Shown here: positions 9,590-16,644 of the stretch, piece by piece
How the letters are laid out: each line of letters starts with the position of its first letter
Position numbering within the stretch: position 1 is the first letter of the stretch
Source: Acidobacteriota bacterium
GTDB taxonomy: Bacteria > Actinomycetota > Acidimicrobiia > Acidimicrobiales > RAAP-2
Direction: 5' to 3'
Assembly (NCBI GenBank): GCA_019352095.1
Contig: JABBNY010000004.1
Location: 1-34,007, forward strand
DNA length: 34,007 nucleotides
Translations under genes and position numbers: made by a program
The notes under the pieces: model-generated
What the model was told of the DNA's origin: nothing
What the model saw: only the letters and a program-made list of their open reading frames with translations
The model's database searches: none

Positions 9590-9633
9590 TCAAGTGACTC
9601 TATATACCCTATGGGGTATATAGAGTCACTTGA
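9590..9633. promoter_or_regulatory. Perfect 20-bp inverted repeat with CsoR/CstR-like core abutting the MMPL start codon
   Basis: tcaagtgactctatataccc-tatg-gggtatatagagtcacttga; arms 9590-9609 and 9614-9633, 20/20 complementary; core ATACCC-TATG-GGGTAT. Confidence 0.85.
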
Positions 9634-12926: not shown

Positions 12927-12944
12927 GATACCCTAGGGGGTATC
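12927..12944. promoter_or_regulatory. CsoR/CstR-type operator-like palindrome upstream of the SQR-like gene
   Basis: gataccc-tagg-gggtatc, symmetrical GATACCC/GGGTATC, ~60 nt upstream of ATG 13004. Confidence 0.7.
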
Positions 12945-13003: not shown

Positions 13004-14458
13004 ATGGCACGAGTAGTGGTCTTGGGGGCAGGCATCTCTGGTCACACCGCGGCGCTGCACCTTCGCCGACTGCTCTCCAAAGAGCACGAGGTCGTCGTCG
13101 TGTCTCCTAATTCGAAGTGGAACTGGATTCCATCGAACATCTGGGTGGGCGTCGGCAAGATGAGCACCAAACAGGTCACCTTTCCCTTGGCACCGATCTA
13201 CAAGCGCAAGGGGATCGTGTTCCACCAGGCCCTGGGCATCGAGCTTCACCCGGAGGGCACTGCAGATGGGTCGCACCCCTACGTTCGAGTGCGCTACACG
13301 GACCCCACACGGGTTGGTGAAGAGGCCAACCTCGAGTACGACTACTTGATCAACGCCACTGGTCCAAAGTTGAACTTCGCCGCCACGCCTGGTCTCGGCC
13401 CTGACGCCAACACCGTCTCGGTGTGCACGGCGGGCCATGCGGTTGAGGCCTCCAAGGCACTCGACGAGGTCATTGAGAAGATGAAGAAGGGCGAACGCCA
13501 GAAGCTCGTCGTCGGCGTCGGCCACGGTACGTGTACCTGTGAAGGTGCGGCCTTTGAGTACACGTTTAACGTCGAGCACGAACTTCGCGCCGCGGGCGTG
13601 CGCGATATGGCGGACCTGACGTACCTGACCAACGAATACGAGTTGGGAGATTTCGGTGTCGGCGGTATGACCTTCAGCCAAGGCGGGCTCGAGACGAGCA
13701 GCAAACTCTGGACCGAGTCGCTCTTTCGCGAACGCGGGGTGAAGGCCGTCCTGCAGTCCCACGTGGAGAAGGTTGAGCCGGGTGAGATTCACTACGAACA
13801 ACTCGACGGTTCCAAGAACACGCTGTCGTTCGATTTCGCAATGTTGCTCCCACCATTTCGTGGTGCTGACATGAAGGCCTTCAACAACGCCGGCGAGGAC
13901 ATCACCGCGGACGTCTTCGCACCCAACGGGTTCATGCGTGTTGACGCTGACTACACCGCCAAGCCCTACGACGAGTGGCGCGCCGCTGACTGGCCGCACA
14001 CCTACGAGAGCGCGCACTATGCGAACGTCTTCGGGGTGGGCATCGCCTTCGCGCCGCCTCACCCGATCTCGCGGCCGCGCACGAGTCCCAACGGCACCGT
14101 GATCTCCCCGGCGCCACCGCGCACGGGCATGCCCTCTGGCGTGATGGGCAAGACCGTGGCGTTGACCATTGTCTCGCGCATCAAGTTGGGTACGACGACA
14201 GCGTCGCACCGCGCCTCGATGGCCGATATGGGCGCATCGTGCGTGGCGTCGGCCGGCACCGGGCTCTTGCACGGTTCGGCCGCGGCGATGACGATGTACC
14301 CGATTGTGCCCGATTTCGAGAAGTACCCCACGGGCCGCAGCCAGAAGGACACCTTCGGTGAAATCGGTTTGGCCGGGCACTGGATCAAGTTCATGTTGCA
14401 TTTCTTGTTCATCTACAAGGCCAAGGCTCGCCCCTTTTGGCACTTGATCCCCGAATAG
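13004..14458 (+). CDS. Sulfide:quinone oxidoreductase-like FAD flavoprotein
   Basis: ARVVVLGAGISGHTAALHLRRLL (FAD-binding), YDYLINATGPKL, Cys-containing GTCTCEGAAFEY and GASCVASAGTGL, C-terminal amphipathic/hydrophobic GHWIKFMLHFLFIYKAKARPFWHLIPE. SD agaaagagg precedes ATG 13004. Confidence 0.82.
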   Translation: MARVVVLGAGISGHTAALHLRRLLSKEHEVVVVSPNSKWNWIPSNIWVGVGKMSTKQVTFPLAPIYKRKGIVFHQALGIELHPEGTADGSHPYVRVRYTDPTRVGEEANLEYDYLINATGPKLNFAATPGLGPDANTVSVCTAGHAVEASKALDEVIEKMKKGERQKLVVGVGHGTCTCEGAAFEYTFNVEHELRAAGVRDMADLTYLTNEYELGDFGVGGMTFSQGGLETSSKLWTESLFRERGVKAVLQSHVEKVEPGEIHYEQLDGSKNTLSFDFAMLLPPFRGADMKAFNNAGEDITADVFAPNGFMRVDADYTAKPYDEWRAADWPHTYESAHYANVFGVGIAFAPPHPISRPRTSPNGTVISPAPPRTGMPSGVMGKTVALTIVSRIKLGTTTASHRASMADMGASCVASAGTGLLHGSAAAMTMYPIVPDFEKYPTGRSQKDTFGEIGLAGHWIKFMLHFLFIYKAKARPFWHLIPE

Positions 14459-14483
14459 TCAGCCCGAGCAGAAAGGACATCAC

Positions 14484-14630
14484 ATGGACAACGCCGAAGC
14501 CAGTATCGCCAGCGCTCCGCTCCCGACTCTCGCGACCTCGCGCCGTCGTAACAACCTGTTTTTTCAGTTGTGGCGGTTCATCGCACTCAACGTTCGCATG
14601 GCCTCAATGATCTTGAAGGGTGATCACTGA
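14484..14630 (+). CDS. 48-aa putative membrane-associated peptide encoded directly after the SQR-like gene
   Basis: Manual translation: MDNAEASIASAPLPTLATSRRRNNLFFQLWRFIALNVRMASMILKGDH*; SD-like gaaagga upstream of ATG; located between SQR-like and CstR-like genes. Not in the ORF track. Confidence 0.65.
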   Translation: MDNAEASIASAPLPTLATSRRRNNLFFQLWRFIALNVRMASMILKGDH

Positions 14631-14642
14631 TGGCATCGTGCG

Positions 14643-14662
14643 CTACACCCCGGGGGGTACCT
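14643..14662. promoter_or_regulatory. CsoR/CstR-type operator-like site upstream of the CstR-like gene (autoregulation candidate)
   Basis: ctacaccccggggggtacct, related to the TACCC..GGGTA cores at 9604-9619 and 12927-12944 but less symmetrical; ~30-50 nt upstream of ATG 14693. Confidence 0.55.
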
Positions 14663-14692: not shown

Positions 14693-14980
14693 ATGAACGA
14701 TGCAACCACCACCCACGCCCTCAACGACGAGCAGCAACTCAACGCCATCGTGAAACGCGTGAAGCGCGCCCACGGACAAATGGGTGCAGTCGTACGAATG
14801 CTCGAAGAGGGCCGCTCCTGCGAGGAAGTCGTCACCCAGATGGCCGCAGTCAGTAAGGCCATCAACACAGCGGCATTCACATTGATCTCATCGAGTCTGA
14901 AGGAATGCATCTCAGACCCGACGTCTAACAGTGACGAAGTCACACAGAAGCTACAGAAGCTCTTCTTGAGCCTGGCGTAA
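14693..14980 (+). CDS. CsoR/RcnR/CstR-family (DUF156) transcriptional repressor, CstR (persulfide-sensor)-like
   Basis: LNAIVKRVKRAHGQMGAVVRMLEEGRSCEEVVTQMAAVSKAINTAAFTLISSSLKECI. Two Cys 29 residues apart as in the family, but Ser at the position of the CsoR Cu-ligand His. Start taken at 14693 so the operator-like site lies upstream. Confidence 0.88.
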   Translation: MNDATTTHALNDEQQLNAIVKRVKRAHGQMGAVVRMLEEGRSCEEVVTQMAAVSKAINTAAFTLISSSLKECISDPTSNSDEVTQKLQKLFLSLA

Positions 14981-14988
14981 GGAGAAGT

Positions 14989-16644
14989 ATGAAAGTCATC
15001 ATTATTGAGGGCGTAGCGGGGGGCATGTCTACCGCAACTCGACTTCGACGTCTGATGGATGATGCGGAGATTGTCGTCTACGAAAAGAGCGGCTTCGTGT
15101 CGTACGCGAACTGCGGTCTGCCCTACTTCGTGGGTGGCGTGATCCAAGACGAGGCGTCATTGCTCTTGCAGACGCCGACGTCGCTCTACGAGCGGTTTCG
15201 AATCGACGTCCGCGTGAATCACGAGGTGACGTCGATCAACGCCGAAGAACGCACGGTGACGGTGATCGACCACACGACGGGTCACGGCGAGACAACGGGG
15301 TATGACGTCCTGGTCTTGAGCCCTGGTGCGTCCGCGGTGGTGCCACCGATTGAGGGTATCGAGCGGGCGATGGCGCTGCGCACGGTCGAAGACGTCGAGA
15401 AGATCGTCGCGGTTACGGATGAGAACCCCGCGAACGCGGTTGTGATCGGGGGCGGCTTCATTGGCGTGGAGATCGCCGAGAACTTGGTGCACCGCGGTAT
15501 TTCGACCAGCGTCGTCGAAGCCTCGGGACAAGTCCTCGCACCACTCGACCTCGAAATGGCGGAGCTGGTCGCGGACGAAATGCGCCGAAAGGGCGTGTCA
15601 CTCTTTTTGAACGAGTCGGTAGTGCGCATTGACGAACGGGGTGTTGAACTCTCCTCGGGTGACTTTGTCGCGGGTGATCTCGTGATCGTCGCTATTGGCG
15701 TGCGCCCCGAGACCGGCCTGGCCCGGGGTGCGGGACTCGCCATTGGCGAGCGCGGCGGTATCGCCGTCGACGAATTCAATCGCACGAGTGTTGCCAACAT
15801 CTACGCGATCGGTGACGCAGCAGAAAAGCGTGACGCGCTCGACTCGAGCGCGACACTGGTGCCGCTCGCCAACATCGCAAATCGACAGGGCCGCGTCGTG
15901 GCGGACCACATCGCGGGACTCGAAGTGCGACCCCTCGCTACCATCGGGACCGCAATTGTGAAGGTGTTCGACCTCACGATCGCCGCGACCGGCTGGAACG
16001 AAAAGCGTCTGCGCGCGATGGGCCACTCGCCACTCATCATCCACACGCACCCCTCGTCGCACGCGGGCTATTTCCCCGGCGCGAAGCAGATGGCACTCAA
16101 GTTACTGATCAATCGTTCGACCGGCGCCATCTACGGCGCCCAGGGTGTTGGTACCGAGGGCGTCGACAAGCGCATCGACGTGCTCGCGACCGCCATACGA
16201 GCCGGCATCACCGCCCCCGAGTTGGCTGACCTCGAGCTGGCGTACGCGCCGCCCTTTGGATCGGCGAAGGACCCGGTGAACATGCTCGGCTACATCGCCG
16301 AGAACCTGCTGAGCGGACTTGAAGAGAACGTCCAATGGTACGAACTCGACGAATACCGCGCCGAAGGCGTCGCCATGATTGATGTGCGCTCGGTGAGCGA
16401 GTTCGCTCGCGGTTCAATACCGGGCGCTTTGAATATCCCCTTGGACGAGTTGCGGGTTCGATTCGACGAGATCCTGACACGCGACGTCATCGTCAATTGT
16501 CAAGTGGGCCAGCGCGGTCACGTGGCCACCCAACTTCTCAACCAGAACGGCTTCAAGGCAAAGAATCTCGACGGTGGTTATCTGACCTGGAGCAAGTCTC
16601 CCGCGTCACGCCCACTCGAGCTCGCTGGCGCAAGCCACGACTGA
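14989..16644 (+). CDS. CoA-disulfide reductase / NAD(P)H persulfide reductase with fused C-terminal rhodanese domain
   Basis: VIIIEGVAGGMSTATRLRRL...SYANCGLPYFVGG (redox Cys), second nucleotide-binding VVIGGGFIGVEIAENL, then rhodanese domain MIDVRSVSEFARGSIPGALNIPLDELR...DVIVNCQVGQRGHVATQLL...NLDGGYLTW. Confidence 0.9.
   Translation: MKVIIIEGVAGGMSTATRLRRLMDDAEIVVYEKSGFVSYANCGLPYFVGGVIQDEASLLLQTPTSLYERFRIDVRVNHEVTSINAEERTVTVIDHTTGHGETTGYDVLVLSPGASAVVPPIEGIERAMALRTVEDVEKIVAVTDENPANAVVIGGGFIGVEIAENLVHRGISTSVVEASGQVLAPLDLEMAELVADEMRRKGVSLFLNESVVRIDERGVELSSGDFVAGDLVIVAIGVRPETGLARGAGLAIGERGGIAVDEFNRTSVANIYAIGDAAEKRDALDSSATLVPLANIANRQGRVVADHIAGLEVRPLATIGTAIVKVFDLTIAATGWNEKRLRAMGHSPLIIHTHPSSHAGYFPGAKQMALKLLINRSTGAIYGAQGVGTEGVDKRIDVLATAIRAGITAPELADLELAYAPPFGSAKDPVNMLGYIAENLLSGLEENVQWYELDEYRAEGVAMIDVRSVSEFARGSIPGALNIPLDELRVRFDEILTRDVIVNCQVGQRGHVATQLLNQNGFKAKNLDGGYLTWSKSPASRPLELAGASHD

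Follow-up and report, generated by a model that had tools for sequence, protein, structure and literature searches.

A conserved small gene downstream of sulfide:quinone oxidoreductase in Acidimicrobiales: a candidate dedicated partner of one clade of the enzyme

The window, i.e., the whole stretch of 34,007 nucleotides analysed here, comes from an assembly of 2.87 Mb in 308 contigs, the close relatives of which are labelled Acidimicrobiaceae or Acidimicrobiales. A small gene is situated between the genes for a flavoprotein similar to sulfide:quinone oxidoreductase (SQR) and a repressor. The following features were recognized:

9604-9618, predicted CsoR/CstR-type operator palindrome ahead of an MmpL-like gene
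12927..12944, no strand assigned, predicted CsoR/CstR-type operator palindrome GATACCCTAGGGGGTATC upstream of SQR
13004..14458, plus strand, SQR-like flavoprotein of 484 aa with Pyr_redox_2; ATG at 13004 is the best reading of the start
14471..14477, plus strand, SD-like GAAAGGA ahead of the small gene
14484..14630, plus strand, small putative SQR-partner gene of 48 aa; core R22, Q28, R31, F32, N36, K/R38, M39
14644..14661, no strand assigned, second predicted CsoR/CstR-type operator, ahead of the repressor gene
14693..14980, plus strand, CsoR-family repressor, CstR-like (PF02583, E 3.5e-21); Cys43-x28-Cys72, Ser at the usual His position
14989..16644, plus strand, predicted CoA-disulfide/persulfide reductase with a rhodanese domain (CoADR-rhodanese; TIGR03385 and PF00581)

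The earlier note on this DNA had proposed an unannotated gene for a 48-aa peptide of no named family at 14484-14630 on the plus strand, starting 25 nt after the SQR-like stop and preceded by an SD-like gaaagga. Coordinates and length agree exactly with the sequence, the TAG stop of the SQR-like gene occupies 14456-14458, and GAAAGGA is found at 14471-14477. An SD-like motif was present upstream of 73 of the 85 small-gene homologues, as opposed to 16% of the control positions within SQR genes. Homologues were detected in 28 other genomes of the window's genus with E values of 1e-25 to 1e-7. The dN/dS comparison proposed earlier gave 0.032/0.656 and 0.037/0.705 against the two nearest relatives, i.e., about 0.05, which indicates purifying selection. 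Judged from the sequence, the ORF is a real gene under selection on its amino acids, far beyond chance. Neither the window peptide nor its profile matched Pfam, NCBIfam models, or PDB chains, where just isolated single-member matches with E values of 0.04-0.32 were obtained; the peptide thus indeed has no named family there. The word "unannotated" does not always hold outside the window's lineage, where four plasmid records carry the gene as "hypothetical protein". In open-access full text, to which the search was confined with subscription papers outside it, a small gene beside sqr was nowhere described.

The partner flavoprotein resembles SQRs of types I-VI (Aquifex 3HYW, A. ferrooxidans 3T31) in its fold, in three catalytic-type cysteines, and in a C-terminal helix. 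The closest PDB sequences were the SQRs of Aquifex and A. ferrooxidans (phmmer E 2e-35 to 3hyv), and the best Foldseek matches of its model were to A. ferrooxidans SQR, with a TM score of 0.85 by target length. Cys141, Cys179, and Cys413 were invariant in the 77-row alignment; the first two align with the cysteines in SICT and SCFG of Aquifex/A. ferrooxidans and the third with that in AICIA. Sequence, fold, and the three cysteines together assign the partner to predicted sulfide:quinone oxidoreductases. According to PMC9666304, most SQRs possess two C-terminal amphipathic helices, and this domain hosts quinone and membrane binding. In the predicted models of the window SQR, the last cysteine strand is followed by a single helix (456-473) instead of two. 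This does not exclude SQR identity, since type VI SQR is also described with one C-terminal helix (PMC9666304).

The 80 proteins most similar to the window SQR (67-97% identity) were taken from GTDB genomes; their loci span Acidimicrobiaceae, Nanopelagicales, Actinotalea, Kineosporia, Mycobacterium, and others. In all 80 of these actinobacterial loci, an ORF homologous to the small gene and about 44-65 codons long was located directly 3' of SQR, at a spacing of 1 to 127 nt and in all three frames. The peptide-type SQR was carried by 31 of 101 relatives, and the peptide was present in all 30 assessable ones; in G024, left out as non-assessable, a contig end cuts the SQR just where the peptide would stand. 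The adjoining peptide was clear in 29 of the 31 genomes and divergent in G075 (PTRFTVFLRTFLPWQVWRFVRVNLKMM, single-sequence E 0.016). No significant peptide match was obtained in the SQR-less genomes among the 101 relatives (best E 0.028). In 298 phylum-wide genomes, both of the two peptide-type SQRs were accompanied by the peptide, and none of the seven genomes with other SQR-like proteins (34-39% identical) contained it.

Four plasmid-borne SQRs, 54-58% identical to that of the window, were found in Thiodictyon, Sulfurovum, Marivivens, and Chondrinema; these copies represent Gammaproteobacteria, Alphaproteobacteria, Campylobacterota, and Bacteroidota. All four are immediately followed by a "hypothetical protein" of 52-53 aa, which shares with the window peptide the motif P-x-P-T...R-x5-Q-x2-R-F-x3-N-x-[KR]-M. 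The profile matched the four plasmid peptides with E values of 2e-17 to 5e-21, the same four being rows of that profile. When the Sulfurovum peptide was compared by tblastn with 72,556 plasmids, the same four were recovered together with one irrelevant match at E 6. The coordinates of G634 are identical to those of G339, which puts G391 in the window's own phylum; the other phyla are therefore represented by plasmid records only.

In the maximum-likelihood tree, the peptide-bearing SQRs formed one clade (support 100/99) and the seven peptide-less ones another; the G763 row was long-branched. In G763 (L122 / L125), a 44%-identical SQR is directly followed by a strongly diverged or degenerate small ORF (NLFVQLYRLVVLSIKFMKL) without the PxPT module, possibly an early or degenerate form. 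A paralogue of the peptide without an adjoining SQR (APLPTGRTRRRRASVPLQGVRFGLINLRMARL, L126 1435-1635, G391:C3) is located behind an NhaA-like antiporter gene and is the sole exception to the SQR linkage.

Other neighbours are less constant. A relative of the CsoR-family repressor lies near SQR in 44 of the 80 loci and CoADR-rhodanese in 38, with the peptide in all 80: the peptide gene tracks SQR and not its other neighbours. Conservation next to SQR-like genes in relatives, on which the earlier note had made its proposal depend, is complete wherever it can be assessed and covers four phyla. At the level of genomes, the partnership of peptide and SQR is strongly supported, and the peptide is very probably an obligate partner of the enzyme. 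The earlier idea of an accessory subunit is borne out in its genomic part; physical association with SQR and a role as anchor, quinone-site helper, or regulator are conjectural.

The repressor of the window has a CsoR-family fold, a cysteine pair, and no metal-ligand His, and can be assigned by its sequence to the CstR pattern. Of the 44 neighbouring repressors, 43 have C-x28-C, with Ser, Asn, or Gly in place of His at the fourth position ahead of the second Cys; C-x28-C without that His is the dithiol signature of CstR proteins that sense reactive sulfur. ATACCC-N3-GGGGTA palindromes precede SQR in 55 of 77 loci. The three palindromes of the window, at 9604-9618, 12928-12942, and 14645-14659 ahead of the MmpL-like, SQR, and repressor genes, respectively, are predicted to mark a local reactive-sulfur regulon. 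CstR has been described together with CoA-persulfide reductase (PMC9405070). Operators and CstR-type repressors together suggest reactive sulfur as the probable inducer of the SQR-peptide pair.

Placed as it is in the window, between the SQR and repressor genes, the small gene could also be a leader peptide or a translational-coupling element that acts on the repressor or CoADR gene after it. Selection, however, acts strongly on the amino acids rather than on the bases, and the gene is kept in every one of the 80 loci, though the repressor and CoADR-rhodanese are near in only about half of them. The spacing to SQR, variable and in any frame, speaks against a leader for the downstream gene as well. 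Where the repressor is not a neighbour, the peptide still accompanies SQR, which makes a role purely in transcription or translation tied to the repressor less likely. We consider such an element very improbable.

From a variable N-terminus, the peptide continues with A-P-L-P-T and a basic stretch (R20-R22) into a helix that spans approximately residues 24 to 45. R22, Q28, R31, and F32 were invariant in 85 peptide sequences, and N36 was conserved in 94%. Conservation of the helix is one-sided (conservation moment p 0.0009-0.0033), and its hydrophobic moment is weakly significant (p 0.05-0.23). A transmembrane span is unlikely because of the charged or polar residues at positions 28, 31, 36, and 38; a helix at the membrane interface or docked on a protein would fit the peptide better. 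Cysteine is absent in 79 of the 85 peptides, so the peptide is not a sulfur carrier, and no heme motif was found in it. With its amphipathic helix and net charge of +1 to +10, the product could also be a cationic peptide that acts alone on membranes or as a toxin, with no relation to the function of SQR. That it occurs strictly together with one SQR clade and is absent elsewhere makes this reading the least credible, close to negligible.

As AlphaFold2 input, we used loci with the small gene in frame with SQR and read the stop as Gln, which yields a linker of 10 or 15 residues. This read-through fusion was a modelling device and implies no actual read-through. Confidence for the peptide was moderate, with block means of 61-65 in run 1 and 57-75 in run 2, against 44-46 and 30 for the linker; in both runs, the peptide was modelled, likewise at moderate confidence, as three short helices. 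Peptide distances tracked SQR distances (r 0.81). When the rest of SQR was partialled out, peptide divergence had its highest partial correlation, 0.38, with SQR residues 446-484, closely followed by residues 217-264 (0.33). Gaussian residue covariation on 85 SQR-peptide pairs showed no concentration on the SQR C-terminus; the top pairs were scattered and dominated by V37. Because covariation gave nothing focused and the rival stretch 217-264 is close, docking at the C-terminus is put forward here as a working proposal.

The single predicted C-terminal helix of the window SQR, compared with two in most SQRs (PMC9666304), could point to gene splitting, in which the peptide, essentially one 20-residue helix, replaces in trans the second of the two C-terminal amphipathic helices found in ordinary SQRs. 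The peptide, however, could not be related by sequence to solved SQR chains: its profile showed no similarity to SQR C-terminal helices in the PDB, including the second helix of solved SQRs, up to E 10. A fused form occurs in 0 of 85 loci, and some peptide-less SQR-like proteins likewise end soon after the first helix, so that lack of a second helix is also found where there is no peptide. Splitting would, moreover, leave the additional N-terminal PxPT/R module unexplained, and we regard it as improbable.

The reading we modestly favour overall is that of a dedicated, obligate small subunit which docks on the C-terminal membrane/quinone domain of SQR as an interface helix supplied in trans. 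The part of this reading that concerns the interface helix is tentative, a little short of an even chance, and we infer both docking site and biochemical role. The small subunit and SQR would probably be made from one transcript, induced by reactive sulfur via the CstR-like repressor. The conserved face (Q28, R31, F32, N36, M39, M42/I43) would pack on SQR, most likely on its C-terminal domain with the quinone channel and the membrane-binding surface, with the cationic residues and the opposite, variable and hydrophobic side at the lipid interface. In this way, the peptide may provide in trans an amphipathic interface helix that aids the lone C-terminal helix of SQR in keeping the enzyme at the membrane and shaping quinone access.

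Small proteins often modulate membrane enzymes, and the peptide might instead be an assembly or activity regulator that binds SQR transiently, for FAD loading, folding, proteolytic protection, or inhibition, and is not a stoichiometric subunit at the membrane interface. The same genomic evidence fits such a regulator, the small gene directly follows that of the enzyme in the operon, and a conserved helix face suits any SQR-binding role. On the other hand, complete retention with SQR across phyla exceeds what is usual for a dispensable regulator, and the core residues are near-invariant along the whole helix. Regulation is thus possible but rather unlikely in our estimate. Returning to the subunit, we give about even chances to the broader proposal that this SQR clade is an unrecognized two-subunit class, in which a helical protein of ~50 aa is stoichiometric and required for membrane docking or quinone access. 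The small protein would have been conserved from a time before Actinomycetota, Pseudomonadota, Campylobacterota, and Bacteroidota diverged, or would have spread between them with SQR.

Flavoproteins with a separately encoded partner are known. The flavoprotein of flavocytochrome c sulfide dehydrogenase (FccAB) is related to the SQR of the window (1fcd was among the Foldseek matches). It works with a second, separately encoded subunit, FccA, a cytochrome c that serves as electron acceptor. The companion peptide, having no heme motif and mostly no Cys, cannot carry electrons or sulfane sulfur in the way of FccA. YjlC-YjlD of B. subtilis (model 9a63, also among the Foldseek matches) is a flavoprotein of the tDBDF superfamily modelled with a partner protein, and serves as a precedent only. 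YjlD is NDH-2 and YjlC its operon neighbour; YjlC is larger than the window peptide. For the SQRs in the consulted part of PMC9666304, no small subunit with a gene of its own is presented, whereas those of the window clade always have the companion gene, which encodes 47-65 aa. In CstR-regulated cst-like operons of E. faecalis, a dithiol CsoR-family repressor and CoADR-rhodanese stand beside sulfide-handling genes, as in the window; unlike the window locus, the operon as described in the consulted part of PMC9405070 does not include a small peptide.

SQR is customarily regarded as a single-gene enzyme. If a widespread clade does need an overlooked second subunit, work on these SQRs has so far been incomplete in heterologous expression, kinetic typing, and genome annotation, and the membrane/quinone end of the reaction would gain a new component that is directly testable. 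The peptide likewise illustrates clearly how a microprotein family is missed when it is smaller than family models usually are.

Actinomycetota-type SQR-peptide pairs were also present on contigs L056 (REEB88, labelled Acidobacteria) and L099 (BP9.bin99, labelled Proteobacteria). REEB88 (G011) belongs to the window's genus according to GTDB, and the draw from the phylum of BP9.bin99 (G391) yielded a genome of the window's genus; the organism labels of both therefore look wrong.
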